From NCBI GenBank assembly GCA_022376925.1, contig JAIOJX010000024.1:168299608-168363607 (forward strand): a stretch of 64,000 bases of DNA, read 5' to 3'. The position numbers and the translations under genes were made by a program. This DNA comes from Tragulus kanchil (taxonomy: Eukaryota; Chordata; Mammalia; Artiodactyla; Tragulidae). Below are positions 561 to 64,000 of this stretch, piece by piece (position 1 is the first letter of the stretch; every line of letters begins with the position of its first letter). The notes beneath the pieces were generated by a model. That model ran no database searches. It had not been told where the DNA came from and saw only the letters and a program-made list of their open reading frames with translations.

Positions 561-794
561 TCAGAATAGTCTAGGGGCCTCTTCGTAAATTGCAGTCAAT
601 GACGATTTAACAGAAAACAATGCTAACAGAGAGGAATCTTACAGATGTCACTAATCAGTAACCACCAGTAAACCATTTTGCATTCCCTTTTACAAACTCT
701 TAAGATTTCCTGAGAGTTTGGAAGAATTTCCGCATAAAGCCTCAAGAACGTTCTCTGAGCTATCACAGACACCTGCTGCCAGTGTGCTCCGACC

Positions 795-1460
795 GTGGCT
801 CCCAAAGTGGAAATGTCTGCATGCAAAAGCACTGGTGCCCAGGGCGCGGTAACGGGGCGAAGGCCGCCCCCGCAGGCCCCCCACCCCCCGACTGGGACAC
901 ATTCCCCTCCGCGGGGATTAGGGAGCTGGGAAAGTAAGGGGGAGCCGGGGGAACGACGCTTCTCACCCGCACCCACTCGGCCGCCGTCCTCCCTCCCGCG
1001 CCCCGCTGCACAGGGGACTTACAGCTCCGGTCTCGACAGGGCCAGCTTCTGAAGCGAGCTGATAACGGGGGGCAGCAGCCGCGGGCACGGCTCGAGCCAG
1101 TGGGGCCCCCTCTGCAGGACACCAGGCCGCGGCCCAGACTGCGGCAGCCTCTGAACTGCCCCAGAAGATTCGAAGAGAAGACGCGTTGGACGCCGCACGC
1201 CAGGTTCAGCCGGGAAAAACGCTGCCCGGACGCTAAATACAGGAGACTAGCTAATAAGGTTCAGGTGTTTCCGGACCCCACGCCCCGCCTCCAGGCAAGC
1301 CCCGCCCAGGCACGCGGGGGCGGGACTGCGACGTTACCAAGGAGAGGCGGTGCACTTCCCCGGAGCCTGCGTGCTGCCCGCGAGGAAGCAGAGGGCGCCA
1401 TCTTTGGTGCGGGCAAGAGAAAAAGTGGGCGGGGAACGGGGCTGCGGGTTTCGTTGAATC
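795..1460. promoter_or_regulatory. CpG island, putative promoter (copy A)
   Basis: Dense CpG and GC boxes (GGGGCGGGAC, GTGGGCGGGG), no TATA box, and GAGGGCGCCATCTTTGG, a YY1-type core, at about 1390-1407. On the minus strand a good splice donor (GAGCT|GTAAGT) lies near 1016-1026, so a minus-strand first exon is possible; in-frame sequence upstream of it lacks an ATG that I could find. No gene recognised. It lies about 10 kb past the end of DMXL2. Confidence 0.55.
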
Positions 1461-1705
1461 TCTTGTTGGTGTAGTTACTTCTCTTTGGCTAATCTGCGAC
1501 TGAATTGCTTCTTTTGAAGCCGGTCTCCGAGTTGCAGATAGATTCATTCCCTAGTTGGTCTGGTTTTTTCCCTACCTACTTCTGCTTCTGCCTTTATGTT
1601 CCTGAAAAGCTACTGTGTTCTTTCATGGAGTATCTGTTTTTCCCTCCAGTCTCTTTGTTGTCTATTTTTACCCTTAGGAGAATCAACAAAATCCTTATTG
1701 TCGGG

Positions 1706-1830
1706 GATTATGTATACCTGTAAACAAGAAAACTCTGTAAAACGTATAACAATAACCGCTGTACACCAAGCTAATGCAATGTTGTAAAACAAATATACCC
1801 CAATTAAAAAAATTTTTAAATCCTTGTTGT
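1706..1830 (+). mobile_element. L1 3' tail (three copies)
   Basis: ACCTGTAAACAAGAAAACTC ... GCTGTACACCAAGCTAATGC ... ATACCCCAATTAAAAAAA. Repeated at 2908-3035 and 3993-4120 by D1 and D2. Confidence 0.75.
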
Positions 1831-1994
1831 CCAGGGGGCCCTCAAGTTAGAAATTTCCCCAAAATGTTTTTTTAAAACAAAACCTTGCATTCCTTTTACA
1901 AACTCTTAAGATTTCCTGAGAGTTTGGAAGAATTTCCATAAAGCCTCAAGAACGTTCTCTGAGCTATCACAGACACCTGCTGCCAGTGTGCTCC

Positions 1995-2660
1995 GACCGT
2001 GGCTCCCAAAGTGGAAATGTCTGCATGCAAAAGCACTGGTGCCCAGGGCGCGTAACGGGGCGAAGGCCGCCCCCGCAGGCCCCCACCCCGACTGGGACAC
2101 ATTCCCCTCCGCGGGGATTAGGGAGCTGGGAAAGTAAGGGGGAGCCGGGGGGACGACGCTTCTCACCCGCACCCACTCGGCCGCCGTCCCCCCTCCCGCG
2201 CCCCGCTGCACAGGGGACTTACAGCTCCGGTCTCGACAGGGCCAGCTTCTGAAGCGAGCTGATAACGGGGGGCAGCAGCCGCGGGCACGGCTCGAGCCAG
2301 TGGGGCCCCCTCTGCAGGACACCAGGCCGCGGCCCAGACTGCGGCAGCCTCTGAACTGCCCCAGAAGATTCGAAGAGAAGACGCGTTGGACGCCGCACGC
2401 CAGGTTCAGCCGGGAAAAACGCTGCCCGGACGCTAAATACAGGAGACTAGCTAATAAGGTTCAGGTGTTTCCGGACCCCACGCCCCGCCTCCAGGCAAGC
2501 CCCGCCCAGGCACGCGGGGGCGGGACTGCGACGTTACCAAGGAGAGGCGGTGCACTTCCCCGGAGCCTGCGTGCTGCCCGCGAGGAAGCAGAGGGCGCCA
2601 TCTTTGGTGCGGGCAAGAGAAAAAGTGGGCGGGGAACGGGGCTGCGGGTTTCGTTGAATC
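1995..2660. promoter_or_regulatory. CpG island, copy B
   Basis: Repeat of 795-1460 within D1, with the same GC boxes and YY1-type core at offset 1200. Probably not an independent island. Confidence 0.5.
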
Positions 2661-2777
2661 TCTTGTTGGTGTAGTTACTTCTCTTTGGCTAATCTGCGAC
2701 TGAATTGCTTCTTTTGAAGCCGGTCTCCGAGTTGCAGATAGATTCATTCCCTAGTTGGTCTGGTTTTTTCCCTACCT

Positions 2778-4948
2778 ACTTCTGCTTCTGCCTTTATGTT
2801 CCTGAAAAGCTACTGTGTTCTTTCATGGAGTATCTGTTTTTCCCTCCAGTCTCTTTGTTGTCTATTTTTACCCTTAGGAGAATCAACAAAATCCTTATTG
2901 TCGGGGATTATGTATACCTGTAAACAAGAAAACTCTGTAAAAACGTATAACAATAACTTCGCTGTACACCCGAAGCTAATGCAATGTTGTAAAACAAATA
3001 TACCCCAATTAAAAAAAATTTTTTTTTTAAATCCTTGTTGTCCAGGTGTGTGGTTCAATCACCTCAAGTTAGAAATTTCCAACTTTGCCACATATGTGTG
3101 CATAAGTTTAACCATTTGTAAATTCTAAAAATGAACTGCAGTGTAAGGTAGTGAAGTGTAGCATTGGCTTTGGAGTTCTCCGTTAAAATAAGATATTTTT
3201 CTCTTGATGTACACAAACATAGACAACATAGCCCCTGGGAAGGGGCTGCTGAGGCTCTCGGCAGAAGGGCCCCCTAGAAAGAGAAAAGGGGAAACTCATC
3301 AATATCCTGCGAGCTGCGTCGAGAGAAAACACCGTCTAGAAAAGAAGCCTCGTGAGTGCAATTCCTGAGAGCAGCCGCCAAGCCGGGTGCACACTCCTCC
3401 CCTGTGTCGAGGTGAGAGGGTGGGGCCGGGGCTGCGCTCCCAGGACAGGGCCCCGTCTTCCCGCGCGCTCTTTCATGGGCTCCCAGGGCCGGAGGAGAGG
3501 CCCTCGGGCTGAGCACCTGCTCTTTCCACCTGCTCCTTCAAGAGCTGTTCACCGAAGACCGCGCATCTGGCGGTGGAGCCGGCTGCACGACCTTGAGGCG
3601 CCTACAGACTCCACTGTAGGCGGGGTTCAACTTCCTGTAGGGGTTCAACTTCCCCTCTGGTGGCACTGAGGAGCTGGGAGGGCGTGAGAGGTGGCCTTCT
3701 GCTACATCCGCCATTGCTTACAGTAAACAAGGGAACAGGAAAGAAAGCAGGATTGGCCCCAGGGGGCGAGGTGCAAATGAAAAGAAATGATTTCATAAAA
3801 CCCAGGTGCTTGCGTCTTCCCGTACATAGAAGGTCGCTAAATCTTTTCATGTGAGAGATTAAACTTCTGCTTCTGCCTTTATGTTCCTGAAAAGCTACTG
3901 TGTTCTTTCATGGAGTATCTGTTTTTCCCTCCAGTCTCTTTGTTGTCTATTTTTACCCTTAGGAGAATCAACAAAATCCTTATTGTCGGGGATTATGTAT
4001 ACCTGTAAACAAGAAAACTCTGTAAAAACGTATAACAATAACTTCGCTGTACACCCGAAGCTAATGCAATGTTGTAAAACAAATATACCCCAATTAAAAA
4101 AAATTTTTTTTTTAAATCCTTGTTGTCCAGGTGTGTGGTTCAATCACCTCAAGTTAGAAATTTCCAACTTTGCCACATATGTGTGCATAAGTTTAACCAT
4201 TTGTAAATTCTAAAAATGAACTGCAGTGTAAGGTAGTGAAGTGTAGCATTGGCTTTGGAGTTCTCCGTTAAAATAAGATATTTTTCTCTTGATGTACACA
4301 AACATAGACAACATAGCCCCTGGGAAGGGGCTGCTGAGGCTCTCGGCAGAAGGGCCCCCTAGAAAGAGAAAAGGGGAAACTCATCAATATCCTGCGAGCT
4401 GCGTCGAGAGAAAACACCGTCTAGAAAAGAAGCCTCGTGAGTGCAATTCCTGAGAGCAGCCGCCAAGCCGGGTGCACACTCCTCCCCTGTGTCGAGGTGA
4501 GAGGGTGGGGCCGGGGCTGCGCTCCCAGGACAGGGCCCCGTCTTCCCGCGCGCTCTTTCATGGGCTCCCAGGGCCGGAGGAGAGGCCCTCGGGCTGAGCA
4601 CCTGCTCTTTCCACCTGCTCCTTCAAGAGCTGTTCACCGAAGACCGCGCATCTGGCGGTGGAGCCGGCTGCACGACCTTGAGGCGCCTACAGACTCCACT
4701 GTAGGCGGGGTTCAACTTCCTGTAGGGGTTCAACTTCCCCTCTGGTGGCACTGAGGAGCTGGGAGGGCGTGAGAGGTGGCCTTCTGCTACATCCGCCATT
4801 GCTTACAGTAAACAAGGGAACAGGAAAGAAAGCAGGATTGGCCCCAGGGGGCGAGGTGCAAATGAAAAGAAATGATTTCATAAAACCCAGGTGCTTGCGT
4901 CTTCCCGTACATAGAAGGTCGCTAAATCTTTTCATGTGAGAGATTAAA
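2778..4948. repeat. Tandem duplication D2 (period 1085)
   Basis: Copy A 2778-3866, copy B 3863-4948. It overlaps copy B of D1, so 2781-3080 exists three times. Clean join sharing AACTT. Confidence 0.93.
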
Positions 4949-5271
4949 CTTTTTCTAATGTACAGTGAGCTTTGACTATTCAGCTTACTTGTCCCTTGCT
5001 GCAAAGCGTGTATAAAACCTGGTTCCTCGTCTGCCTCCTCGATGTGAGCTCTCTTGGGGTCACCTGAGATGCTGTCTTCTCTGCTCAGGCTACATTCCCA
5101 CACAATGAAGCCTAACGCTCACCTTTTAGGTTGCGCATGTTTTTTCCAGTCAACATGCACTATATTTACAGAAAGGAACTGCTCTGGCGGTGAGCGCAAA
5201 GCGCGATATAAGAGTTTGTTGTCACTGCTGCTGATCACCACCCAAGCAGTAAAAACAAACCGGAGGGCTTC

Positions 5272-6124: not shown

Positions 6125-6410
6125 GGGCGGGCCACTTCTATTGGTCTTTCATTTCTCTGTTTTCATCCATCTTTGTTCTCTGGCCCGTGTGGGCCTCCAT
6201 CGCGGTGGCCTCTGTCGTCGCTAACTCAAGGAAGAGCCATGTGCCACAGACGAGCAGCTCGACCAGTGTGTCTGACTATGAGCCAGCGCTCTGGAGTGCG
6301 CGTACCCAGAGTCAGTGCTCGGCAGTGAGAGGCCACTGAAATGGGAGGCCAACACAGGCCAAAAATAAAGACGGATGAAAATAAATGGATAAAGATTCAA
6401 TAAAAGAGGC
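6125..6410. mobile_element. CHR-like SINE inverted pair
   Basis: 6130-6215 is the 3' part of the SINE in minus orientation; 6280-6410 is the 3' part in plus orientation, ending ACGGATGAAAATAAATGG. The arms are largely complementary, so the locus can fold back. Confidence 0.7.
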
Positions 6411-6579
6411 CTAAATTTTTTTTAAAAAAGGTAAAAAAAAAAACCCAAGACCCAACACCTACTTTAAAACCACAGATTAAAAGTAAACGAATGAAGAAAG
6501 ATAAACTAGCCTAACACAAATAGAAAGAAAACTAAAGCAGCTATGTTAATCTCAGACAAAACAGACTTCATGACAAGTG

Positions 6580-7100
6580 AAACATATCCGCTTTTTCAGA
6601 TTGTTTTCCCATATAGGCCATTACAGAGCACCGGTGACCGCTGCCCGTCCTATGCAGTTGGTCCCCGTTGGTTCTGTATTCTATACACAGTAGTCTGTGT
6701 GGATCAGTCCCAATCTTCCAGTTTTTCCCTACTCTCCCTTACTCCCTGGTAACAGATGCAACTCTACTTCTGTTTCGTAAGAAGTTCATTTATACCCTTT
6801 TTGAGATTCCTCATGAAAGCACTATCATACGATATTTGTCTTTCTCTGACTTCACTCAGTATGACGATCTCTAGGTCCAGACATGTTCCTGCAAATGTGT
6901 TTTGATTTTTTTGGCTGAGTAATATTTCACTGTATATACCACGTCGTCTTCATCCATTCCTCTCTTGAAGAACATTTCAGTTGCTTCCATGTTCTGGATG
7001 CTGTGAAACAGTGCTGCAGTTCACACTGGGGTGCATGCATCCTTCTGAGTGATACTTTTCTCTGGATATATGTCCAGGAGTGGTATCACCTCCCACAGAT
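6580..7100 (-). mobile_element. L1 3' end, minus orientation
   Basis: Reads as the reverse complement of L1 3' UTR and ORF2 end (TTCCCATATAGGCCATTACA; GAGTAATATTTCACTG; GGTGCATGCATCCTTCTGA). Degraded, no open ORF2. Copy at 7704-8224. Confidence 0.8.
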
Positions 7101-7109
7101 CCAACGGCC

Positions 7110-7480
7110 ATCATCAAACGTGCTACAGAGGGCGTGGTGCAAAGGGAACCCTCCTACACTGCTGGGCCAGAATGGAAACTGGTGCAGACACTATGGAGAA
7201 GTATATGGAGATTCCTTAAAAAACTAAACACAGATTTAACACATATGATTCTGCAATCCCACTCCGGACATACATCCAGAAAGCTCTAGTTTGAAAAGAT
7301 ACATACACCCAGTATTCAGAGTAACAATGCTCACAACAGCCAAGATAAGGAAACAACCCTACGTGTCCATCGACAAATAATGGATAAAGAAGATACGGTT
7401 CATATACACAATGGACCACTACTCAGTCATGAAAAAGAATGAAATATTGCCATCTGCAGCAATACGGATGTGTCTCTTTC
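7110..7480 (+). mobile_element. L1 ORF2 3' end, plus orientation
   Basis: AAGGGAACCCTCCTACACTG through TGGTGCAGACACTATGGAGA to ACTCAGTCATGAAAAAGAAT, the end of ORF2, oppositely oriented to the adjacent L1 piece (5'-inversion or two insertions). Copies at 8234-8596 and 9443-9737. Confidence 0.8.
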
Positions 7481-8596
7481 GTGACCCCATGGACTGCACG
7501 GATGAAAATAAATGGATAAAGATTCAATAAAAGAGGCCAAAATTTACAAAAAAAGTAAAAAAAAAAACCCAAGACCCAACACCTACTTTAAAACCACAGA
7601 TTAAAAGTAAACGAATGAAGAAAGATAAACTAGCCTAACACAAATAGAAAGAAAACTAAAGCAGCTATGTTAATCTCAGACAAAACAGACTTCATGACAA
7701 GTGAAACATATCCGCTTTTTCAGATTGTTTTCCCATATAGGCCATTACAGAGCACCGGTGACCGCTGCCCGTCCTATGCAGTTGGTCCCCGTTGGTTCTG
7801 TATTCTATACACAGTAGTCTGTGTGGATCAGTCCCAATCTTCCAGTTTTTCCCTACTCTCCCTTACTCCCTGGTAACAGATGCAACTCTACTTCTGTTTC
7901 GTAAGAAGTTCATTTATACCCTTTTTGAGATTCCTCATGAAAGCACTATCATACGATATTTGTCTTTCTCTGACTTCACTCAGTATGACGATCTCTAGGT
8001 CCAGACATGTTCCTGCAAATGTGTTTTGATTTTTTTGGCTGAGTAATATTTCACTGTATATACCACGTCGTCTTCATCCATTCCTCTCTTGAAGAACATT
8101 TCAGTTGCTTCCATGTTCTGGATGCTGTGAAACAGTGCTGCAGTTCACACTGGGGTGCATGCATCCTTCTGAGTGATACTTTTCTCTGGATATATGTCCA
8201 GGAGTGGTATCACCTCCCACAGATCCAACGGCCATCATCAAACGTGCTACAGAGGGCGTGGTGCAAAGGGAACCCTCCTACACTGCTGGGCCAGAATGGA
8301 AACTGGTGCAGACACTATGGAGAAGTATATGGAGATTCCTTAAAAAACTAAACACAGATTTAACACATATGATTCTGCAATCCCACTCCGGACATACATC
8401 CAGAAAGCTCTAGTTTGAAAAGATACATACACCCAGTATTCAGAGTAACAATGCTCACAACAGCCAAGATAAGGAAACAACCCTACGTGTCCATCGACAA
8501 ATAATGGATAAAGAAGATACGGTTCATATACACAATGGACCACTACTCAGTCATGAAAAAGAATGAAATATTGCCATCTGCAGCAATACGGATGTG

Positions 8597-8788
8597 TCTC
8601 TTTCGTGACCCCATGGACTGCAGCCCAACAGGCTCCTCTGTCCAGAGGATTCTCCAGGCAAGAATACTGGGGAAACTTTTCCATTTCCTCCTCTAGGGGA
8701 CCTTCCCAACCCATGGATTGAATGCTTGTCTCCTGTGTCCCCCACACTGCAGATGAATTCTCTACCTGCTTAGCCATCGGGAAGGCCC
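8597..8788 (-). mobile_element. Bov-tA SINE (copy A)
   Basis: Antisense Bov-tA: CGTGACCCCATGGACTGCAG, TCCAGGCAAGAATACTGG, then AGCCATCGGGAAGGCC. Ruminant-specific family. Confidence 0.8.
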
Positions 8789-9737
8789 TGGTAAGTGCAC
8801 GTGCATGCTTACAATTTTGTCAAATTTGTGTTCCTATGCATTTAGGCATCCCCGCTCCTATTTTCTTCATCATTCCACATAAGCACCATCCCCAGCTCAG
8901 CGCCTTCACCAGCGTGGACACCAAAATCCACTCTCACTTCCGTCAACAAGAAAATACAGCACCCGTAGCTCTCACCCAGCTAAACCCCAAGACTCCACGC
9001 TTCTGTCACACTGCCTCTGTGTCCTGTTTCTGAGAATGGTTTATGATACAGAAGGCACTCGTAAATATTCGTAATTGAATGAGCCATCTAATATCTTAAA
9101 ACTTTGCTTAACTATTAGAAAATTCTTATTAAAGTTAAATGATCTCAACTGTTATGTTATCCAAAAAAGCCGTATCAAACTGAGGTAAAACTCTAACAAA
9201 TAACATTTATTTTTCTTTTACATATGTATTTCACAGCCCAAATATCACACTGCCTTCAGAGAAAGGTGCTTTTATGCCATTACATTTTACTATGTACCGC
9301 ACAGCCATGAAACATTCTCATTAACACGATGAGACGATTTGCTGGTAAACATTTAAACACACAGACATTGGTTTCAAAATTTCAAGAACATATTTGTTGG
9401 TCATAACCAAGAAGGACATCACAATGGGGACCCATGGGCAAAGCTGGTGCAGACACTATGGAGAAGTATATGGAGATTCCTTAAAAAACTAAACACAGAT
9501 TTAACACATATGATTCTGCAATCCCACTCCGGACATACATCCAGAAAGCTCTAGTTTGAAAAGATACATACACCCAGTATTCAGAGTAACAATGCTCACA
9601 ACAGCCAAGATAAGGAAACAACCCTACGTGTCCATCGACAAATAATGGATAAAGAAGATACGGTTCATATACACAATGGACCACTACTCAGTCATGAAAA
9701 AGAATGAAATATTGCCATCTGCAGCAATACGGATGTG

Positions 9738-9929
9738 TCTCTTTCGTGACCCCATGGACTGCAGCCCAACAGGCTCCTCTGTCCAGAGGATTCTCCAGGC
9801 AAGAATACTGGGGAAACTTTTCCATTTCCTCCTCTAGGGGACCTTCCCAACCCATGGATTGAATGCTTGTCTCCTGTGTCCCCCACACTGCAGATGAATT
9901 CTCTACCTGCTTAGCCATCGGGAAGGCCC
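9738..9929 (-). mobile_element. Bov-tA SINE (copy B)
   Basis: Same element as 8597-8788 through duplication D4, offset 1141. Confidence 0.8.
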
Positions 9930-10346
9930 TGGTAAGTGCACGTGCATGCTTACAATTTTGTCAAATTTGTGTTCCTATGCATTTAGGCATCCCCGCTCCT
10001 ATTTTCTTCATCATTCCACATAAGCACCATCCCCAGCTCAGCGCCTTCACCAGCGTGGACACCAAAATCCACTCTCACTTCCGTCAACAAGAAAATACAG
10101 CACCCGTAGCTCTCACCCAGCTAAACCCCAAGACTCCACGCTTCTGTCACACTGCCTCTGTGTCCTGTTTCTGAGAATGGTTTATGATACAGAAGGCACT
10201 CGTAAATATTCGTAATTGAATGAGCCATCTAATATCTTAAAACTTTGCTTAACTATTAGAAAATTCTTATTAAAGTTAAATGATCTCAACTGTTATGTTA
10301 TCCAAAAATGCCGTATCAAACTGAGGTAAAACTCTAACAAATAACA

Positions 10347-10352
10347 TTTATT
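10347..10352 (-). terminator. DMXL2: Candidate distal poly(A) signal AATAAA
   Basis: Reads AATAAA on the minus strand, followed downstream by TGTTATTTGTTAGAGTTTT, a U/GU-rich element. A duplicate of the same signal lies near 9206 because of the 8303-10556 tandem duplication. Confidence 0.5.
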
Positions 10353-11348
10353 TTTCTTTTACATATGTATTTCACAGCCCAAATATCACACTGCCTTCAG
10401 AGAAAGGTGCTTTTATGCCATTACATTTTACTATGTACCGCACAGCCATGAAACATTCTCATTAACACGATGAGACGATTTGCTGGTAAACATTTAAACA
10501 CACAGACATTGGTTTCAAAATTTCAAGAACATATTTGTTGGTCATAACCAAGAAGTACATCAAAATATGACAACATTGGCTACTATTTTTCAAGCAAATA
10601 ATATTTAACTCTGCATAGTTTATACAATAGGCTGTGGTAGTAAATAATATCACCAATCTCATCAACGAGTAACTGGCCACAAAAAGCCTAACATTCATTG
10701 TAGTTATGATACGAAATGCTCTACTGGTGTTGTTTCAACATATCCTTAAAATGCTGTGGGTGTGTAACTCCGAATACATGAAAAGAAAACGTACTAAACG
10801 GGACTAAAAAAAAGAAGTGCTGACTCCGCCTGTTTGGGGTAACTACAAATATGTCATGTCCACATATTACATTCCTAACATGAAGGCAAATATTTAAATA
10901 GAAAACCTCGCAGTCCAAAAACGGTGAATGTGCAAACTGTGAGGAAACAATGCATTTAAATTTGCACTCATTTGCAAATTACAGTACTAGCTCAGTATAA
11001 ACACTAACAGGAAAAAATATTCAGCAGGAAAGAACGGGAATGACCTCACAGCAGAGCACTCGTCACTGCGCACAGCTCCAGAGCTTAGCATGCTTCTGGT
11101 GACCGGGAGCTTCTAGCTCCTTAGGACTACCCTGCATTCGACACGGAGACCGCGGGCATGCTTCGATCAATGGTAAGAATAGGAAGAAAAACCCGAAACA
11201 GCAACATTTTCTTCCTTTATGTTGGGTAAAGGTCCTTCTCATTATAACAACTTAATTATAGGCGACCTTCTAACCTCAATTGTTTTCTGAATCAGGTTTG
11301 CTAAATGCTGTAAAGAAGAGCTACCCTTTATATAATACTAGGTTTTGC

Positions 11349-12979: not shown

Positions 12980-13763
12980 CTAAGAAACAAAAATGCATCA
13001 TAAACAAGTTGTTCTAAGTCATCATTGAGATAAACTGTCCTTGTTTTTTTTTTTTCTACACAAGAGATTTTTGCTGGTCATCCACTTCAACCATGGCGGT
13101 GTGTACATGGCTTTTCCAAAGTCCCCAAACATCCCCTTCCCCTTGGCAACCAGGTTTGTTTTCTAAGTGTGTGAGCCTCTTTCTTTTCACATCAAGTAGT
13201 TTTACTTACTGAATCTCATGGTTTGGGGCTCACTTAACACCTGTAAAGCAGTGATTCTCCCCAGGATGAGGGGAGAAGCTGGGACCGGGGCTCTCTCTCT
13301 TCCAAGACTTTATCCTTTTCAAACTGCAGGGTTCTGTCCCACCTGACTCATTTCCTAGCCCTATCTGCTTTCCATTCTCACTCCAGAGAAAATGAGCCAC
13401 GAACAGAAATGAACAGAAATGCCGCTTCTGCGTCCGCAAGAGCCAACGCCACAGGGCAGCGCGCGGGGTCGTGCACGGCCACGTGCAGCCAGCAAAAACC
13501 ACCTGAGGAACAGCGATGGTGCAGCGTCGCAAAAACCCGCCAGTATTTCACCGCAATTAAGAATCATCCACATGCTTATCAGATCACCTTAGGAGTCAGT
13601 TCACTCTCTTTCTGGTAAGAAAAACTACTCAAAGAATTACGTAACAAAGACTTTCTGTTTCTGAGGTAGAAAAGCCTCACTAAATAGAAACCCACACTTT
13701 CCGGCCAGAGGACCTGTCTGCCTGAGACACGCTCATTTCTGTTCTGCATCCTGGTCAACCCAC

Positions 13764-13855
13764 CTGTTGTCACTGGAATGTCCAGACGTGGCGACGAGAC
13801 TCGAAGAGGTGACAAAGGCGAAGTCGCTCGTGGCTTTCCCATGGCACTGCCAGCT
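13764..13855 (-). CDS. DMXL2: DMXL2 exon, WD40 blade (copy A)
   Basis: Identical to 14880-14971. The two copies differ only in the nearby intronic poly-G run and at the join near 14131. 92 nt, so double inclusion would shift the frame. Confidence 0.88.
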
Positions 13856-14879
13856 CTGTGGGGACAAAGCACAGGGGCCGTCACCGCCGGGGCCACAGTG
13901 CCGCGGGTCGCCCCCCAACGTGCAGGCGCCAAGAGCCCAGAACAGAGAGCAAGCGGGGGGGGGGGGGGGGGGGGGTCGCTGCCATCTGCACATGACTGGA
14001 CCAACGCCAAACAATTGTTTAAAACTGAAAGAAGCTGGGAAAAAGATGGAATTAAAGGTTATGCTCTTTAGATTATATAACAAAGGGACAAAACACCAAG
14101 TACATAAACTTAACCAACCATTTAAACCAAATTGTCATCATTGAGATAAACTGTCCTTGTTTTTTTTTTTTCTACACAAGAGATTTTTGCTGGTCATCCA
14201 CTTCAACCATGGCGGTGTGTACATGGCTTTTCCAAAGTCCCCAAACATCCCCTTCCCCTTGGCAACCAGGTTTGTTTTCTAAGTGTGTGAGCCTCTTTCT
14301 TTTCACATCAAGTAGTTTTACTTACTGAATCTCATGGTTTGGGGCTCACTTAACACCTGTAAAGCAGTGATTCTCCCCAGGATGAGGGGAGAAGCTGGGA
14401 CCGGGGCTCTCTCTCTTCCAAGACTTTATCCTTTTCAAACTGCAGGGTTCTGTCCCACCTGACTCATTTCCTAGCCCTATCTGCTTTCCATTCTCACTCC
14501 AGAGAAAATGAGCCACGAACAGAAATGAACAGAAATGCCGCTTCTGCGTCCGCAAGAGCCAACGCCACAGGGCAGCGCGCGGGGTCGTGCACGGCCACGT
14601 GCAGCCAGCAAAAACCACCTGAGGAACAGCGATGGTGCAGCGTCGCAAAAACCCGCCAGTATTTCACCGCAATTAAGAATCATCCACATGCTTATCAGAT
14701 CACCTTAGGAGTCAGTTCACTCTCTTTCTGGTAAGAAAAACTACTCAAAGAATTACGTAACAAAGACTTTCTGTTTCTGAGGTAGAAAAGCCTCACTAAA
14801 TAGAAACCCACACTTTCCGGCCAGAGGACCTGTCTGCCTGAGACACGCTCATTTCTGTTCTGCATCCTGGTCAACCCAC

Positions 14880-14971
14880 CTGTTGTCACTGGAATGTCCA
14901 GACGTGGCGACGAGACTCGAAGAGGTGACAAAGGCGAAGTCGCTCGTGGCTTTCCCATGGCACTGCCAGCT
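14880..14971 (-). CDS. DMXL2: DMXL2 exon, WD40 blade (copy B)
   Basis: 92 nt: SWQCHGKATSDFAFVTSSSL, VATSGHSSDN plus AG, donor GTGGGT, acceptor CCACAG. Matches 13764-13855 at offset 1116. H-G-K-A-T-S-D-F-A-F and A-T-S-G-H are WD40 strand signatures. Confidence 0.9.
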
Positions 14972-15801
14972 CTGTGGGGACAAAGCACAGGGGCCGTCAC
15001 CGCCGGGGCCACAGTGCCGCGGGTCGCCCCCCAACGTGCAGGCGCCAAGAGCCCAGAACAGAGAGCAAGCGACGGTGGGGGGGGGGGGGGTCGCTGCCAT
15101 CTGCACATGACTGGACCAACGCCAAACAATTGTTTAAAACTGAAAGAAGCTGGGAAAAAGATGGAATTAAAGGTTATGCTCTTTAGATTATATAACAAAG
15201 GGACAAAACACCAAGTACATAAACTTAACCAACCATTTAACCAAAGACCCAAGCAATTGTAATGCTTATCTCAAATACATTTAAGCAGCTTTAATAATAA
15301 TTAATCATAATACAGCACCCCCTCAGGAGAACAACTACTATTTGCCCATCTAGTCTTAGACCTGAGGACTGAACCCAAGTGAGCTTTGGAACCTTCATAC
15401 AAACAGTGGTGAGCCCTGCCTTCGCCACAAGGAAAGAGCAGTAAGAAAAGCGAAGTCAAAAAAGAATCCACAAAATTATCCTGCCAAAGGTAATCCTGCA
15501 AAATAACGTACAGGCTCAAGGTGGCCCAGGACAGCGCCTGAGGGCGTCCCAGGGCTGTAGCACACCACCTCCGGAGCCACGCGTGAGCCTCCTCACTGGC
15601 TCATCTGCGGATGCGCAGGACGTGGAGGGGCGGTGCCGGAGGAGGAGCCGGCGTTTAACATAACACAGACATCTTTCTGTTTGGAACTCTTGGTATATTA
15701 CAGAAATGACCAAAGGCCGGAGGACAGAATGAAGATCACTTCCATTCTGTAAAGACTTCACGACACAGCTTATAATGTATTTTGTTGGGGATGGAGAAGG
15801 G

Positions 15802-20020: not shown

Positions 20021-20104
20021 CTGTAAACCAAAGGCAAAGTCACTCATTGAAGCAATTTCACTAAAGCAGAGTACAACGTTCTTTATACTGATGTAAGGGT
20101 TTAC

Positions 20105-21128: not shown

Positions 21129-21212
21129 CTGTAAACCAAAGGCAAAGTCACTCATTGAAGCAATTTCACTAAAGCAGAGTACAACGTTCTTTATACTGAT
21201 GTAAGGGTTTAC

Positions 21213-46345: not shown

Positions 46346-47750
46346 TCACTGTTCTAATATTAACTTATTTCAGAAAGTTCTTTAAATTAGTTACAAATAG
46401 TTATTGACAGTTTTTAAAAATAAAATACCAAAAGTATCTTGTTTAAAACAAAATACCAAATGTGTCTAAATGGTTAGATGCCATTTAGTCTTTAAAATCT
46501 TTTCCAAACATCACTTAATACTTAAAAATCCTTTCTGTATTCACTTATTTGTATTTTCAAAGGTCTGCCGTAAGGAGACTATTGATGGTACCAGGATGTA
46601 TCAGCAATGCTCATGGTGCTATTCTGGTGCATTTCTTAGTTCTGTAAAGTTGTGCAAGCTCAATTCTGAATTAAAATATCAACTAAAATCTGAGGAGTCT
46701 CCTATTTTAGAAATACCTAATCCTAAAGTCAAATGTGCCCAAACATTTACTTTTCTCATCTGTATGGAGTGGGGGAAATACAAAAGAAGAAAATACATCT
46801 GACTCCTTGGATAATCAATCAAAGCCTAAGAACTAGAAAATATATATTTAAACAAAATTTATTTGGATTCTCATCTGGCACCATTTTAAGCAGTGACTGA
46901 TATGAAACAAGTTGTCTCTGATCATTAAGATGACCACCATCAACTAAATAAACTTTTTTCTTTACACTTCCAAGTTTCAGGAGTTTCTTAGACACGGTCT
47001 TACTAGGCTAACATCAGAATTAGGTCATTTTCAGAGACTAATTCCTTATCCAATAAGATCTTCCTAAAAGAGGTGGCTGAAATTACAAGAAAAAAATCTA
47101 GACATGTTTAATATAAATTTAATGCAATTCTATTAGTATTACAAACTTTTCATTTATTAATATACTTTATTTATATATAGGTCATCTTTCCAAGTGATTC
47201 AATCTCTTACTACTTATACTGCCATGGTCATTAAAATACAAAGCCTATGCTGATGAAGGCAATTGGACATTTAACAAAAATTCACACCATCACATCTGTT
47301 GATATCACTTTAAAAGATTTATACAGAAACGCGTAAAATTGATCTTAATAATCCAATGCTAGGAATGTATTTTTTCAATTTTCAAGTTTTTCCTCTTTTG
47401 ACTAAAAAGCAAACAAACAGAAACTAATCTAATGCTAAAAGGAATAGTTCCTACAGGGGGAAAAAGTTAGAAAACTTCGTATTATTACTTTGGATAATGC
47501 CCAATTTTCTTGAAAACAAAACGATGGTGATGATAATCTTCCTTTACTATTCATCATTTTCTATATGTCTCTGTGGTTATTAGGTGATTGCTAAACTAGA
47601 CAAATAATTATTTTATTTCTCATTCTCATCTATTGACGTAAACGAGGTGATCTTACTCAGGGACTGCTCAGTGCCTTGGACGCAGAGCCTTAATCTAACT
47701 GTCACAGAGTTTAGTGGCTCCACGGTGTAAACACTAACTGGGTGGCTGAC

Positions 47751-47827
47751 CTGCAGCTGTGGCTGTCACACAGGGCTTGGTAAATTGATGCAGAAAGCGA
47801 TGCCGCTAGGGAATGAAGCGTGTGCAC
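47751..47827 (-). CDS. DMXL2: DMXL2 77-nt exon, copy 1 of 3
   Basis: First (left-most) copy of the VHTLHSLAASL exon. The Ser codon is split AG|T with the next exon at 45762-45889, giving DSHSC-S-QTEGN. The flanking intron is identical to the other copies except near the duplication joins. Confidence 0.88.
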
Positions 47828-48867
47828 CTAAAACCAAAAGAGCCACAGTCACATTTTGTACTAACATTTCTACAAACAGTAGTATGTTAAAGGTCAGAAA
47901 ACATCCAGGAAACTAGCAATATCACAAGACTGGATCCTCCATGAGTCACATTTTGTATATATATTTAAACAAAATTTATTTGGATTCTCATCTGGCACCA
48001 TTTTAAGCAGTGACTGACATTTAACAAGTTGTCTCTGATCATTAAGATGACCACCATCAACTAAATAAACTTTTTTCTTTACACTTCCAAGTTTCAGGAG
48101 TTTCTTAGACACGGTCTTACTAGGCTAACATCAGAATTAGGTCATTTTCAGAGACTAATTCCTTATCCAATAAGATCTTCCTAAAAGAGGTGGCTGAAAT
48201 TACAAGAAAAAAATCTAGACATGTTTAATATAAATTTAATGCAATTCTATTAGTATTACAAACTTTTCATTTATTAATATACTTTATTTATATATAGGTC
48301 ATCTTTCCAAGTGATTCAATCTCTTACTACTTATACTGCCATGGTCATTAAAATACAAAGCCTATGCTGATGAAGGCAATTGGACATTTAACAAAAATTC
48401 ACACCATCACATCTGTTGATATCACTTTAAAAGATTTATACAGAAACGCGTAAAATTGATCTTAATAATCCAATGCTAGGAATGTATTTTTTCAATTTTC
48501 AAGTTTTTCCTCTTTTGACTAAAAAGCAAACAAACAGAAACTAATCTAATGCTAAAAGGAATAGTTCCTACAGGGGGAAAAAGTTAGAAAACTTCGTATT
48601 ATTACTTTGGATAATGCCCAATTTTCTTGAAAACAAAACGATGGTGATGATAATCTTCCTTTACTATTCATCATTTTCTATATGTCTCTGTGGTTATTAG
48701 GTGATTGCTAAACTAGACAAATAATTATTTTATTTCTCATTCTCATCTATTGACGTAAACGAGGTGATCTTACTCAGGGACTGCTCAGTGCCTTGGACGC
48801 AGAGCCTTAATCTAACTGTCACAGAGTTTAGTGGCTCCACGGTGTAAACACTAACTGGGTGGCTGAC

Positions 48868-48944
48868 CTGCAGCTGTGGCTGTCACACAGGGCTTGGTAA
48901 ATTGATGCAGAAAGCGATGCCGCTAGGGAATGAAGCGTGTGCAC
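48868..48944 (-). CDS. DMXL2: DMXL2 77-nt exon, copy 2 of 3
   Basis: Identical 25 codons plus 2 nt, with the same TTTAG acceptor and AG|GTCAGC donor as the copies at 47751 and 50007. Because 77 is not a multiple of 3, splicing in more than one copy shifts the frame, so only one copy is credible biologically. Confidence 0.85.
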
Positions 48945-50006
48945 CTAAAACCAAAAGAGCCACAGTCACATTTTGTACTAACATTTCTACAAACAGTAGT
49001 ATGTTAAAGGTCAGAAAACATCCAGGAAACTAGCAATATCACAAGACTGGATCCTCCATGAGACTACTACTAACTCTACCTTAAAGCTTCTCAGGTACCA
49101 CTCACCCAACTTAATATGCAAGCTCACAACCAAGCTAACCGAGTTACACACACATCGTTTGTTACTATGAGCCTGCCACTTAGCAGGTCCTGAGCAAAGA
49201 ACCCACTGTCTTAGACTACTAATAAATCGCTTAAATAGTCACACTCAAAGCAAGTAGAACCAAAATAAGCAGACAGATTTCAGAGCTTTTATTTAAACTT
49301 GTCCTATGAAATTTCCCTTGATGAAACTAGAGAATTCACCTTATCAATAAGAATAATTAAACATTTAGAAAATGTATCAATCACTGTGTGAATTGGTTAG
49401 TTTTCCAGAAAGCAAGTAATCCACGTGTAACTAATGCAGTTTTAGAATTTGACATGTTGATAGGTCAAAAATTATCAATATACTATAAAAACCATATCCT
49501 CCGATGCCACACTGAATCAGCACTTTGACTCCTACAATCTTAAAACCTGAAGGAATCATACAGTTTCATGCTTTTTCAAAGTTTATCCAAATGTTCCAGG
49601 AACTAAAAACGTTAATTCAGAGCAGCACTGAACGCATTTTCCACTTTTCCACAGTCACTTACCAAATAGCTGAATCTCTGATATTTTTCAATTAATCTCT
49701 GCTAAAATACTGATAGATTAATTCACACTATGGATCGGAGTCTCCAAATAGATAAGGGTCTTCAGAAGCAATACTACCAGGGTTTGATGATAATCTTCCT
49801 TTACTATTCATCATTTTCTATATGTCTCTGTGGTTATTAGGTGATTGCTAAACTAGACAATAATTATTTTATTTCTCATTCTCATCTATTGACGTAAACG
49901 AGGGGATCTTCCTCAGGGACTGCTCAGTGCCTTGGACGCAGAGCCTTAATCTAACTGTCACAGAGTTTAGTGGCTCCACGGTGTAAACACTAACTGGGTG
50001 GCTGAC

Positions 50007-50083
50007 CTGCAGCTGTGGCTGTCACACAGGGCTTGGTAAATTGATGCAGAAAGCGATGCCGCTAGGGAATGAAGCGTGTGCAC
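50007..50083 (-). CDS. DMXL2: DMXL2 77-nt exon, copy 3 of 3
   Basis: Encodes VHTLHSLAASLSASIYQALC then DSHSC, ending TGC AG|GTCAGC. Third identical copy of the exon, produced by two overlapping tandem duplications (periods about 1117 and 1140 bp). It lies in the copy nearest the upstream exon at 52.5 kb, so it is as good a candidate for the true locus as the others. Confidence 0.88.
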
Positions 50084-51321
50084 CTAAAACCAAAAGAGCC
50101 ACAGTCACATTTTGTACTAACATTTCTACAAACAGTAGTATGTTAAAGGTCAGAAAACATCCAGGAAACTAGCAATATCACAAGACTGGATCCTCCATGA
50201 GACTACTACTAACTCTACCTTAAAGCTTCTCAGGTACCACTCACCCAACTTAATATGCAAGCTCACAACCAAGCTAACCGAGTTACACACACATCGTTTG
50301 TTACTATGAGCCTGCCACTTAGCAGGTCCTGAGCAAAGAACCCACTGTCTTAGACTACTAATAAATCGCTTAAATAGTCACACTCAAAGCAAGTAGAACC
50401 AAAATAAGCAGACAGATTTCAGAGCTTTTATTTAAACTTGTCCTATGAAATTTCCCTTGATGAAACTAGAGAATTCACCTTATCAATAAGAATAATTAAA
50501 CATTTAGAAAATGTATCAATCACTGTGTGAATTGGTTAGTTTTCCAGAAAGCAAGTAATCCACGTGTAACTAATGCAGTTTTAGAATTTGACATGTTGAT
50601 AGGTCAAAAATTATCAATATACTATAAAAACCATATCCTCCGATGCCACACTGAATCAGCACTTTGACTCCTACAATCTTAAAACCTGAAGGAATCATAC
50701 AGTTTCATGCTTTTTCAAAGTTTATCCAAATGTTCCAGGAACTAAAAACGTTAATTCAGAGCAGCACTGAACGCATTTTCCACTTTTCCACAGTCACTTA
50801 CCAAATAGCTGAATCTCTGATATTTTTCAATTAATCTCTGCTAAAATACTGATAGATTAATTCACACTATGGATCGGAGTCTCCAATAGGATGATATGAC
50901 CTGTAAACCTTGGGTTCTTCAGAAGCATATACTACCAGGGTTTGAATGTGCATTTTAAACCAAAAAATTCAGGAGAAAAATGATGGGGACCTGAAATAAT
51001 ACCAGTCACTGGAACTGGAAAAAGCACAGGACAAAGAGACTTAGGCTAACACAGTGGATATGTGATCAGCTCTCCAGATCCTGCCATACTCTCTGGAGTT
51101 TCTTAGAAGAGACCCTCTTTTACGCTTTCAACCTAGGAGTCTTCATAGCAGAGTCTTAATTTGGGGCAGTAACTCTGCCCAAACTCTCATTGCCCCAAAC
51201 ACAATCCTCAGGAAGATAGCAATGAGGGTACTCTCTCTGCAACTACTTCTAATCAATCACGGTTTTCTCTAAGATACATCCCAAATTTACATTCTCATAA
51301 TATCCTAGCATGCAAGCATCC

Positions 51322-52655: not shown

Positions 52656-53004
52656 CTGTGAGGGACGGCAGATTGTTGTTTTGCAAAGTGGTTAAAATGA
52701 AGGAGGAAAAAAAACAATTAATAGGCATATGATAAAAATACTGGCAGTGAACGTATGCACACTGGCCTAACAGGCGCTGTGCTCAGGGCAGAGGGTGAGT
52801 GTGCCACAGCTGTGCGCTCAGGCTTTCAGGCTTCTCCTGTTCATCAAAACGCCTGTCTAAACAGACCGGAGCAGAGTGCAAACATCTTCCTCCTACGAAG
52901 AGAGGAGCTGATCGCATTAAGATTAACTGGTAAAAAGAGCTTTACAACTACCAAGGAAGGAGTTACCGGAATTAATACAATAACCAAGACTGAAACCCAG
53001 TGGA

Positions 53005-53321
53005 GGGCTTCCCTGGTGGTCCAGTGGGTAAGGACACCGCCTTGCACTGCAAGGGGCGCCGGTTCGATCCCTGGCCTGGGAAGATCCCACGTGCCGCGGA
53101 GCGGCTGGACCCATGTGTCCAATTGCTGAGCCGGAGCTCTGGAGCGCATGCGCCCAGAGCAGGAGCTTTGCAACGACAGACGCCACCGCGATGGGAGACC
53201 CACACGGGCCAAAGAACAAAGACGGATGAAAATAGAGAAATGAAGGACCAATAGAAGTGGCCCGCCCACTCCCCTCCCGCCCCAACCCGCTCCCCCCCAA
53301 TAAATAAATAAATAAATAAAA
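53005..53321 (+). mobile_element. CHR-like SINE next to a splice donor (copy A)
   Basis: Target-site duplication GAAACCCAG(T/C)GGA at 52992-53004 and 53322-53334. The insertion lies 10-24 nt inside the intron from the donor at 53344. Tail AATAAATAAATAAATAAATA. Confidence 0.93.
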
Positions 53322-53344
53322 GAAACCCAGCGGAAAGTCCGTAC

Positions 53345-53884
53345 CTGCTGTGACTCTTGGAGCAGAAACTTGAGCTCCATCCTGACAGAGGCCAGCCCGC
53401 CGCCCTGGGCCCCGTGGAGGCTGCAGTAGCTCAGGAAGACTCGCAGGAGGTCCTGGTTCTTCTGCAGCCAGAGCTTCCGCCGTTCCGCGCGCTCCCGCTT
53501 CGCCTGCAGCCTCCGCCTCTCTATCTGGTGCCGCTCGTAGGAGCCAATGTCCGGTTTGTCCATCATTTCTTCCTGATCCAGAAGCTCACGATCTGCTTTG
53601 GAATACGTTTTACCAGCATATTCTTTCATCGCTGATTCGTGGTTACATATCTCATGCAAGGCAGCGATTTCCTTTTCAAGCCAGTTGTAGAGCTGAAATC
53701 GGAGTTTTCCTCCATCGACTTCATAACCGGTAGCCAATGTTCTTAGTTCAGTCATCAGGATCTTTAAACAAGCTCGGAACTTTAGTTGCTCAGCAATCAC
53801 ATCAACTTCAGTATCATCTTCAAGATAATCCTCCTCCTGAGGAGGTGATAACACGTGAGGGTCTGGGGCTTGCTGATCTTCTTG
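53345..53884 (-). CDS. DMXL2: DMXL2 large exon, truncated duplicate (copy A)
   Basis: The downstream half of the 1082-nt exon repeated at offset 1095, cut off at 53884 where the sequence jumps back to intronic DNA (CTTCTTG|CAGAGG). It has the same donor (ESQQ|GTACGG) but no acceptor and no upstream half. An open frame from 54013 to 52844 fuses about 43 residues of intronic sequence to this fragment and is a chimera created by the junction. Confidence 0.85.
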
Positions 53885-54100
53885 CAGAGGGTGAGTGTGC
53901 CACAGCTGTGCGCTCAGGCTTTCAGGCTTCTCCTGTTCATCAAAACGCCTGTCTAAACAGACCGGAGCAGAGTGCAAACATCTTCCTCCTACGAAGAGAG
54001 GAGCTGATCGCATTAAGATTAACTGGTAAAAAGAGCTTTACAACTACCAAGGAAGGAGTTACCGGAATTAATACAATAACCAAGACTGAAACCCAGTGGA

Positions 54101-54416
54101 GGGCTTCCCTGGTGGTCCAGTGGGTAAGGACACCGCCTTGCACTGCAAGGGGCGCCGGTTCGATCCCTGGCCTGGGAAGATCCCACGTGCCGCGGAGCGG
54201 CTGGACCCATGTGTCCAATTGCTGAGCCGGAGCTCTGGAGCGCATGCGCCCAGAGCAGGAGCTTTGCAACGACAGACGCCACCGCGATGGGAGACCCACA
54301 CGGGCCAAAGAACAAAGACGGATGAAAATAGAGAAATGAAGGACCAATAGAAGTGGCCCGCCCACTCTCCTCCCTCCCCAACCCGACCCCTGCCCAAAAT
54401 AAATAAATAAATAAAA
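54101..54416 (+). mobile_element. CHR-like SINE next to a splice donor (copy B)
   Basis: Same insertion as 53005-53321 via D16, with a different 3' C-rich tail (ACTCTCCTCCCTCC versus ACTCCCCTCCCGCC). Confidence 0.93.
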
Positions 54417-54439
54417 GAAACCCAGCGGAAAGTCCGTAC

Positions 54440-55521
54440 CTGCTGTGACTCTTGGAGCAGAAACTTGAGCTCCATCCTGACAGAGGCCAGCCCGCCGCCC
54501 TGGGCCCCGTGGAGGCTGCAGTAGCTCAGGAAGACTCGCAGGAGGTCCTGGTTCTTCTGCAGCCAGAGCTTCCGCCGTTCCGCGCGCTCCCGCTTCGCCT
54601 GCAGCCTCCGCCTCTCTATCTGGTGCCGCTCGTAGGAGCCAATGTCCGGTTTGTCCATCATTTCTTCCTGATCCAGAAGCTCACGATCTGCTTTGGAATA
54701 CGTTTTACCAGCATATTCTTTCATCGCTGATTCGTGGTTACATATCTCATGCAAGGCAGCGATTTCCTTTTCAAGCCAGTTGTAGAGCTGAAATCGGAGT
54801 TTTCCTCCATCGACTTCATAACCGGTAGCCAATGTTCTTAGTTCAGTCATCAGGATCTTTAAACAAGCTCGGAACTTTAGTTGCTCAGCAATCACATCAA
54901 CTTCAGTATCATCTTCAAGATAATCCTCCTCCTGAGGAGGTGATAACACGTGAGGGTCTGGGGCTTGCTGATCTTCTTGTCCACCTTTCCCCCCGACATC
55001 TGGGCTTTTCATCACTAAGCCAGCGGCATCTTCTTCCGCTTCGCCTGAGGCGCTATTGCGCTCTTCACCCCAGTCGAGAGTCAGAGGCTCCTCGTCCAGT
55101 CTGACCACTGGCTGACTCCAGTCGAGCTGCGATGAAGTGACACCTGACCAGTCGACGCCAGCAATTCCGTCACCATCACTCAGAGCTTTCGATTCTGAAG
55201 ACATGTGATCCATCTTTTCAGAAATGAAGTCAGGCTGATCATGTTTTGAGGGGAAGGCAGACACTTTAGTAACTTTAGGAATTTTTGAGAGTACCTCCAA
55301 GGCCAAAACAGGGCATCCAACTTTAAAGTGAGCATTGGCTGTAGTAAAGAATAATTTCCTTTCTATGAGGTTAATTTTATCAACAAAGTTCTTCTCAGTT
55401 TTGAGACCTACAGTTGCCAAAGCTCCTTCAGGGGAGGCAAGGTTTCTTCGAATAAGCAAAGGATGAGTTCGAAGGTAGTTGTAGAAACTAAACACCACTG
55501 GGTTACAAGATTTGATGATAG
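54440..55521 (-). CDS. DMXL2: DMXL2 large 1082-nt exon (acidic linker)
   Basis: The longest exon in the window, 2 nt plus 360 codons. It starts IIKSCNPVVFSFYNYLRTHP, passes through a low-complexity acidic region (SGVTSSQLDWSQP, then EERNSASGEAEEDAAGLVMK), then DTEVDVIAEQLKFRACLKIL and a Lys/Arg-rich helical stretch (SYERHQIERRRLQAKRERAE), and ends LKFLLQESQQ before GTACGG. This is the linker between the Rav1-like core and the WD40 C-terminus. The open frame reads on past the donor into an intronic SINE, so a simple ORF of 488 codons here overstates the exon. The 3' part of the exon is repeated at 53345-53884. Confidence 0.94.
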
Positions 55522-61478: not shown

Positions 61479-61640
61479 CTGGGAGCCAGAGTACAGACAT
61501 CAGTGATTAAGCCAAATTTAAAATATTTAATCCTTTACAGAATATATTTTGAAAGTATAGTTTCAATGAAAACATGAAATGAAAACGTAAAACATCCATC
61601 TAAAAGAACATCCATCTGAAAGAACATCCCCCCTAAATGT

Positions 61641-61816
61641 GGCTGAGTCATGTCCGACTCTTTGTGACCCACGGGCGAGCCACGGAACCCTCCGTTCAAG
61701 AACACGGAGTGGGTGGCCTTTCCCTCCTCCAGGGAGTGCTTCCAACCCAGGGACGGAACCCAGGTCTCCAGCAATGCAAGCAGACTGCTTTACCATCTGA
61801 GCCATGAAGAAAGCCC
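61641..61816 (-). mobile_element. Bov-tA SINE (copy A)
   Basis: GGCTGAGTCATGTCCGACTC to CCATCTGAGCCATGAAGAAA. Copy B at 62737-62912. Confidence 0.85.
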
Positions 61817-61976
61817 AAAAGAAGAACAGTGACAATTCTAGTGATACGTATTTGTTATCAAACTATCACACGATTTCTTCTCTTAAACAAGGAGAAAACT
61901 CACAACGGTTTGTGTATCCATAAGCAGGAAGCAAGAGTACTCTTAACTTTCCAAAGTGCTTTCAGTAACATTTTTT

Positions 61977-62297
61977 TCTTTAAAGATTTATTTATTTATT
62001 TATTTTGGTCGGGGGTCCAGTTGGGGAGGGAGGAGAGCAGGCGGGCCACTTCTATTGGTCTTTCTCTATTTTCATCCGTCTTTGTTCTTTGGCTCCTGTG
62101 GGCCTCCCATCGCGGTGGCCTCTGTGGTCACAGAGCAACGGCTCTGGGCGCATGCGCTCCAGAGCTCCGGCTCGGTCATTGGACACATCAGTCCAGCCGC
62201 TCTGTGGTACGTGGGATCTTCCCAGGCCAGGGCTCGAACCGGCACCCCTTGCGCTGCAAAGCAGTGTCCTCACCCACTGGACCACCAGGGGAAGCCC
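61977..62297 (-). mobile_element. CHR-like SINE (copy A)
   Basis: Short target-site duplication CAGTAAC at 61963-61969 and 62298-62304. Lacks CATT in CTTTCATTTCTC. Copy B at 63073-63393. Confidence 0.9.
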
Positions 62298-62490
62298 CAG
62301 TAACTTATTTTTAATAACATCCCACTGTTTAGGTTAAGCTCAAATGATATGGTGCTTATTTTTTGCAAATAAAGGAACCAAGGCACAAAAAAGGAAACTG
62401 ATTCATCCAAGTATTTTGAGAAGTATCACATCTCTAATTCAGAGCACACTCTTCATTCCATTATACCATATTAAGTGTTAGGCAATTTAC

Positions 62491-62588
62491 CTAAACAAGC
62501 CCCACACTACTGCTTTCTTCTTCATTGAAAGGTAGAATAACGCAGCATCCAAGGCATCATTGTTCCGTTGAAAAGAAGCTTTGGCAAC
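62491..62588 (-). CDS. DMXL2: DMXL2 exon, Rav1-like core (copy A, false duplicate)
   Basis: Identical to the exon at 63587-63684, offset 1096 bp, with the same acceptor and donor. Using both copies in one transcript would repeat 32 residues plus a 2-nt phase remainder and break the frame (98 nt is not a multiple of 3). That supports an assembly duplicate rather than a genuine exon repeat. Confidence 0.85.
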
Positions 62589-63586
62589 CTAAATGGTCAA
62601 TAAATAATTAAACTGAATTAACTATGATAAAAGAATTACAATCAATGCTTCCTTACTGTTTCATGGCTGATCAAAATATGAAGATGGGAAGAGCTGAATC
62701 TATTTCACGATCTCAAGTAGCTTGTAATACATGTTTGGCTGAGTCATGTCCGACTCTTTGTGACCCACGGGCGAGCCACGGAACCCTCCGTTCAAGAACA
62801 CGGAGTGGGTGGCCTTTCCCTCCTCCAGGGAGTGCTTCCAACCCAGGGACGGAACCCAGGTCTCCAGCAATGCAAGCAGACTGCTTTACCATCTGAGCCA
62901 TGAAGAAAGCCCAAAAGAAGAACAGTGACAATTCTAGTGATACGTATTTGTTATCAAACTATCACACGATTTCTTCTCTTAAACAAGGAGAAAACTCACA
63001 ACGGTTTGTGTATCCATAAGCAGGAAGCAAGAGTACTCTTAACTTTCCAAAGTGCTTTCAGTAACATTTTTTTCTTTAAAGATTTATTTATTTATTTATT
63101 TTGGTCGGGGGTCCAGTTGGGGAGGGAGGAGAGCAGGCGGGCCACTTCTATTGGTCTTTCTCTATTTTCATCCGTCTTTGTTCTTTGGCTCCTGTGGGCC
63201 TCCCATCGCGGTGGCCTCTGTGGTCACAGAGCAACGGCTCTGGGCGCATGCGCTCCAGAGCTCCGGCTCGGTCATTGGACACATCAGTCCAGCCGCTCTG
63301 TGGTACGTGGGATCTTCCCAGGCCAGGGCTCGAACCGGCACCCCTTGCGCTGCAAAGCAGTGTCCTCACCCACTGGACCACCAGGGGAAGCCCCAGTAAC
63401 TTATTTTTAATAACATCCCACTGTTTAGGTTAAGCTCAAATGATATGGTGCTTATTTTTTGCAAATAAAGGAACCAAGGCACAAAAAAGGAAACTGATTC
63501 ATCCAAGTATTTTGAGAAGTATCACATCTCTAATTCAGAGCACACTCTTCATTCCATTATACCATATTAAGTGTTAGGCAATTTAC

Positions 63587-63684
63587 CTAAACAAGCCCCA
63601 CACTACTGCTTTCTTCTTCATTGAAAGGTAGAATAACGCAGCATCCAAGGCATCATTGTTCCGTTGAAAAGAAGCTTTGGCAAC
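63587..63684 (-). CDS. DMXL2: DMXL2 exon, Rav1-like core (first exon in window, copy B)
   Basis: Encodes VAKASFQRNNDALDAALFY followed by a Lys-rich stretch and VVWGLF. It is 98 nt, starts in phase 0 after TTTAG and ends with a split Arg codon (AG) before GTAAAT. This is part of the conserved Rav1-like helical core that precedes the linker. The same exon lies identically at 62491-62588 as part of the duplication at 61.6-63.8 kb; only one copy can be real. Confidence 0.9.
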
Positions 63685-64000
63685 CTAAATGGTCAATAAA
63701 TAATTAAACTGAATTAACTATGATAAAAGAATTACAATCAATGCTTCCTTACTGTTTCATGGCTGATCAAAATATGAAGATGGGAAGAGCTGAATCTATT
63801 TCACGATCTCAAGTAGCTTGTAATACATGCTTCTATTGACAGCCCTTTGCATACCTGTAGTTGCAATAAAAGTAACAGCAACTAGTATTTACTGACTGCT
63901 TACCATGTTCCAGGCACCTTTTATTTATCTTACTGAATCACCACGGATCCAGACGTACTATTAATATCCCCATTTTATGCACAAGGCAAGGGAGACAGGG

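Follow-up and report, generated by a model that had tools for sequence, protein, structure and literature searches.

False duplications in genome assemblies are divided, in the sections of the study drawn on here, into heterotype duplications, which arise from allelic divergence, and homotype duplications, which arise from read errors (PMC9516828). According to the same sections, false duplication takes up 4-16% of the older assemblies studied, and where two copies share a scaffold, a gap between them counts as a characteristic sign (PMC9516828). The duplications described here, which are found throughout the sampled parts of assembly GCA_022376925.1, are like the cases in those sections of PMC9516828 in that they appear to be extra copies made by assembly, some of them adjacent on one scaffold, that can create false gene gains. 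They are unlike those cases in that the unit is near-constant in size, the copies abut without N bases, and the share of the sampled sequence is about 30%. Among the matches listed in a search of the open-licence literature, no title or abstract start described this exact fault, which is weak evidence of its absence. Very probably, the duplications are overlaps between consecutive consensus blocks that were never merged.

The window, the whole stretch of 64,000 nucleotides that was analysed (C5:168299608-168363607), belongs to an assembly of 3,167,203,957 bases in 32 sequences. The total length, the chromosome scale of the sequences, and the presence of APC and BRCA2 coding sequence are consistent with a mammal. 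A sequence-only reading had claimed that it contains seventeen tandem duplications of about 1.1 kb, and self-BLAST of the window indeed returns 17 direct head-to-tail pairs with identities of 97.1-100%. Matches of this length (over 1 kb) and closeness (97-100% identical) are not due to chance. Start-to-start distances range from 1056 to 1207 bp (mean 1112, sd 32) and agree within 7 bp with the 17 periods given earlier. Together the 17 duplications add 18,899 bp, which is 29.5% of the window; a sum of about 18.9 kb had been claimed. The window contains no N bases. Instead, the copies of the 17 aligned pairs abut, are separated by up to 38 filler bases, or overlap by 15 bases at most. A 5-kb piece within the window showed no pair at a 400-bp threshold, because it takes in duplications 4 and 5 only in part.

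The duplications, none of which is assigned a strand, are numbered here along the window, with the start-to-start offset given as the unit. Duplication 1 (678..3080) joins copies 678-1858 and 1885-3080, with a unit of 1207 bp, a 26-bp filler, and 97.1% identity; bases are missing near the start of its copy 2 and near the end of its copy 1. Duplication 2 (2778..4951; copies 2778-3866 and 3863-4951) has a unit of 1085 bp and is 100% identical. It is followed by duplication 3 (6371..8622; 6371-7498 and 7498-8622; unit 1127 bp, 99.4%) and by duplication 4 (8300..10566; 8300-9425 and 9441-10566), whose 1141-bp unit includes a 15-bp filler (99.6%). Duplications 5 (13018..15245; 13018-14131 and 14134-15245; 1116 bp, 99.6%) and 6 (19367..21580; 19367-20472 and 20473-21580; 1106 bp, 99.7%) come next. 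Duplication 7 (22517..24719; 22517-23615 and 23623-24719) again has a unit of 1106 bp, with a 7-bp filler and 99.8% identity, and duplications 8 (24663..26899; 24663-25770 and 25777-26899; 1114 bp, 97.5%) and 9 (26498..28615; 26498-27560 and 27554-28615; 1056 bp, 99.9%) come directly after it. The copies of duplication 10 (31284..33472; 31284-32385 and 32371-33472; 1087 bp, 99.7%) overlap by 15 bases at the join, and those of duplication 11 (36018..38217; 36018-37098 and 37137-38217; 1119 bp, 99.2%) are separated by a 38-bp filler.

Further along the window are duplication 12 (40252..42411; 40252-41332 and 41336-42411; 1084 bp, 99.4%), duplication 13 (43001..45197; 43001-44096 and 44103-45197; 1102 bp, 99.5%), duplication 14 (46840..49062; 46840-47945 and 47957-49062; 1117 bp, 11-bp filler, 99.7%), duplication 15 (48645..50945; 48645-49787 and 49785-50945; 1140 bp, 98.0%), and duplication 16 (52788..54979; 52788-53884 and 53884-54979; 1096 bp, 99.3%). 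Duplication 17 (61640..63832; 61640-62736 and 62736-63832), with a unit of 1096 bp and 99.9% identity, carries one tRNA-Cys-like call per copy, at 61738-61812 and at 62834-62908.

At five places in the window, the second copy of one duplication overlaps the first copy of the next: duplications 1/2 (1885-3080 and 2778-3866), 3/4, 7/8, 8/9, and 14/15. One of these overlaps, that of duplications 7 and 8, is only 57 bp; at four of the five, sequence present in three copies is visible in the self-BLAST. Neighbouring duplications that overlap in this manner have the arrangement of a tiling path.

The units recur outside the window. All ten of the 10-kb stretches flanking it contain units of about 1.1 kb, as do all 11 of the distant 10-kb stretches, which hold 1 to 4 units each and 32 in total, counting units truncated where a stretch ends. 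These 11 places in 3.17 Gb (C1 to C8 at 20 Mb, where C5 is the window's own sequence, and C15, C23 and C27 at 100 Mb) were picked by round coordinates rather than by content. Within them the excess makes up 32% of the bases (bootstrap 27-36%), or about 3 units per 10 kb. At a uniform density the assembly as a whole would carry about 0.92 million duplications, with false sequence amounting to about 1 Gb, and the underlying genome would be near 2.15 Gb (2.04-2.30). The latter value seems low for a mammal, and thus the units may be unevenly spread, or collapsed repeats may also contribute.

Measurements were pooled over a 244-kb sample composed of the window, 100 kb of flank, and eight distant 10-kb stretches. 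Across its 69 units, the offset has a median of 1105 (sd 35, range 1024-1219), and the overlap has a median of 1093. When near-abutting tandem pairs are defined as at least 150 bp long, at least 95% identical, and no more than 60 bases apart, 65 of 65 in this sample fall at an offset of 1000-1230 bp. The joins themselves share no motif: none of the four boundaries shows a base preference above that of random positions. Over the 164-kb region that includes the window, the spacing of joins is 1.8-8.9 kb, with a mean of 3.6 kb and a coefficient of variation of 0.48 (n=45). The distances between successive block starts, after subtraction of the minimum of 609, have a mean of 1664 and an sd of 1574 (n=60), which is near exponential.

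The differences between copies are not symmetrical. Within the first 20% of the unit, copy 2 lacks bases relative to copy 1 in 24 pairs, the reverse holds in 6, and 38 pairs are tied (p = 0.0014, sign test); within the last 20%, 23 pairs have a shorter copy 1 and 5 a shorter copy 2, with 40 ties (p = 0.0009, sign test); these counts cover 68 of the 69 pairs, one cut by the end of its stretch being left out. Taken by halves, the imbalance is 28 to 8 in the first half (p = 0.001) and weaker, 25 to 13, in the second (p = 0.07). Within the middle 60% of the unit, copy 2 is shorter in 16 pairs and copy 1 in 7, which is not significant (p = 0.09). A held-out set of only 7 complete pairs, too small to carry weight, leaned the expected way by 2 versus 1 at either end, with 4 ties each. 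If a block L stops at the join and a block R starts there, L should be least reliable where copy 1 ends and R where copy 2 begins, and the errors at the edges thus indicate block ends.

In kind, the differences comprise 175 indel events versus 105 substitutions, with 59 transversions versus 46 transitions, and 10 of the 68 pairs show no difference at all. Being rich in indels and transversions and biased to the edges, they are more like consensus error than mutation. The sequence-only reading had described near-identical copies with noise at the joins. The differences are indeed concentrated at the edges, but some are internal, as in the pair at 24663 (duplication 8), which has 11 clustered substitutions at copy positions 474-541.

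Two genes illustrate the effect on coding sequence. They were named from Pfam matches and, for APC, also from matches to solved APC fragments, which lie in its first open frame. On C3, the Pfam family APC_basic gives three successive matches (positions 2-342, 52-342, and 302-342) within a 10-kb stretch read on the minus strand, which contains duplications at offsets of 1080, 1111, 1111-1114, and 1116-1117, the one at 1080 being truncated at the edge of the stretch. The APC coding sequence is split over open frames of 1117, 820, 470, and 315 aa. The changes from the first frame to the second and from the second to the third coincide with joins, and the third frame stops at a one-base difference between copies, before the last join; the 1080-bp unit preserves the reading frame. 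Part of EB1_binding (1-43 of 174) is found in the third frame, and the whole of it in the fourth.

On C32, BRCA2 repeats give 11 matches, among them four echoes of equal score at +1163, +1120, +1126, and +1126, and the matches are spread over frames of 492, 1224, 661, and 477 aa. The +1126 unit aligns over 895-1069 bp at 99.7-100% identity; for the +1120 unit, the alignments cover truncated pieces of 95 and 174 bp, which are 100% identical; the +1163 unit was placed from the match positions alone. Thus, in APC and BRCA2, conserved genes that are expected to be intact and single-copy, the coding sequence is fragmented by tandem copies. Mammalian development is known to depend on both, and on general knowledge a mammal bearing APC and BRCA2 so fragmented is not credible.

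A process that would produce this pattern can be outlined. The sequence would have been built as a chain of consensus blocks, each opening with the stretch of about 1.1 kb that closes the previous block. This shared overlap would have been due to be aligned and used once; instead, the blocks would have been concatenated end to end, so that two copies of the shared stretch remain in the sequence and the seam between them is ragged and prone to error. A fixed overlap combined with a variable block length would follow if blocks ran between shared nodes and the shared node was left unmerged. We infer that the joined pieces are consensus blocks made by the assembler itself, with all or most of the joins between them having failed. 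On balance, but by a narrow margin of confidence, we regard this as a class of false duplication distinct from heterotype and homotype, in which nearly every internal block join is unmerged, giving about 0.9 million copies of fixed length and about 1 Gb of false sequence.

The leading candidate for the responsible program is wtdbg2 with wtpoa-cns, run on nanopore reads, to which we give about an even chance. We take wtdbg2/wtpoa-cns to compute consensus on such blocks, with a default layout node of 1024 read bases. A layout of this type, with a fixed overlap near one node length and variable block length, fits the units, whose overlap is near-constant at about one such node (median 1093, offset sd 35, n=69). 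If nanopore reads lose about 6% of their bases net to deletion, 1024 read bases would stand for about 1.09 kb of the true sequence, close to that median. A lattice of 256-base bins, which a wtdbg2-type layout might leave in the block starts, was not detected: the best periodicity score was 0.225, versus a 95% point of 0.334 for the null (n=60). That block starts should fall on a read-bin lattice is our own expectation and not a published criterion.

The sequence-only reading had placed the fault in a gap-closing or contig-joining step. Its core, an overlap that failed to merge, stands; the place in the pipeline probably does not, since a mean join spacing of 3.6 kb makes successive consensus blocks within the assembler more likely than contigs at a gap-closing step. 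Overlapping contig ends left unmerged by contig-level gap closing or scaffolding would look alike in overlap, identity, and seam noise. However, joins at that spacing over 164 kb, together with units in all of the distant stretches, would imply contigs of only a few kb, and ordinary contig overlaps are unlikely to hold near 1.1 kb with an offset sd of 35, so that we consider a contig-level origin improbable. Still less probable is a heterotype duplication, with two alleles side by side. In the sections of PMC9516828 drawn on here, heterotype duplications are described as the chief source of the false copies in the assemblies studied, but allele divergence is not expected to yield a near-constant unit, and it sits poorly with the 10 of 68 pairs that lack any difference and with differences that are polarised and concentrated at the edges.

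Genuine tandem duplications in the animal, made by some process whose unit is fixed at about 1.1 kb, have as their sole support the presence of the copies in the file, and their likelihood is close to nil. Such a process would have to leave about 3 duplications per 10 kb wherever the genome is sampled, joins without a motif, missing bases that are polarised, and broken coding sequence in APC and BRCA2. These observations, including units in all of the sampled stretches, uphold the earlier claim of a systematic assembly artefact. The duplications are almost certainly absent from the animal and not a biological feature; as stated above, unmerged overlaps between consensus blocks are the preferred explanation.

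Should the density of the samples hold elsewhere, roughly 30% of the assembly would be false sequence, and gene models, exon counts, maps of segmental duplication, variant calls, and gene-family expansions derived from it would be wrong. APC and BRCA2 are examples of the resulting annotation damage. If this reading is true, seams without N bases would make the fault invisible to gap statistics, and a screen by self-alignment for near-abutting repeats of a single size class would reveal other affected assemblies. The value of the finding lies in its warning about GCA_022376925.1.

One exception to the size class lies outside the set of 65 pairs. It is a 383-bp repeat on C26, at an offset of 873 and cut where its stretch ends, and it adjoins a second APC_basic locus, which is probably APC2.

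The window also contains a dispersed repeat, probably a tRNA-derived SINE, whose copies are about 260-336 bp long and are found in either orientation, on both strands (15784-16065, 31763-32022, 38327-38658, 46011-46346, 51815-52077, and 53004-53318). In the self-comparison of the window, the pairs listed at the 90% identity cut-off are 90.8-93.4% identical, and tRNA-like calls fall with the repeat at 38579-38653 and 51994-52068. Two extra copies, 32850-33109 and 54100-54415, are doublets of the copies starting at 31763 and 53004, arising through tandem duplications 10 and 16, respectively. At 5637-5922, in sequence not covered by any 1.1-kb unit, lies a short minisatellite whose periods are 31 and about 50 bp.

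Within duplication 8 (24663-26899), 11 substitutions are packed into about 70 bp in the middle of the unit. These clustered differences are possibly allelic, or may represent a mixed-copy consensus within one block. On C26, the sampled stretch L026 carries, next to a second APC_basic locus, a direct repeat (positions 2697-3079 and 3570-3951 of L026) whose copies are 99.5% identical. Its offset, 873 bp, is smaller than that of all remaining units observed, and the repeat is truncated where the sampled stretch stops.

Sixteen of the 32 sequences in the whole assembly are 73-297 Mb long, one is 10.7 Mb, and the other 15 are <1.6 Mb, suggesting that the source animal has about 16 chromosome pairs.
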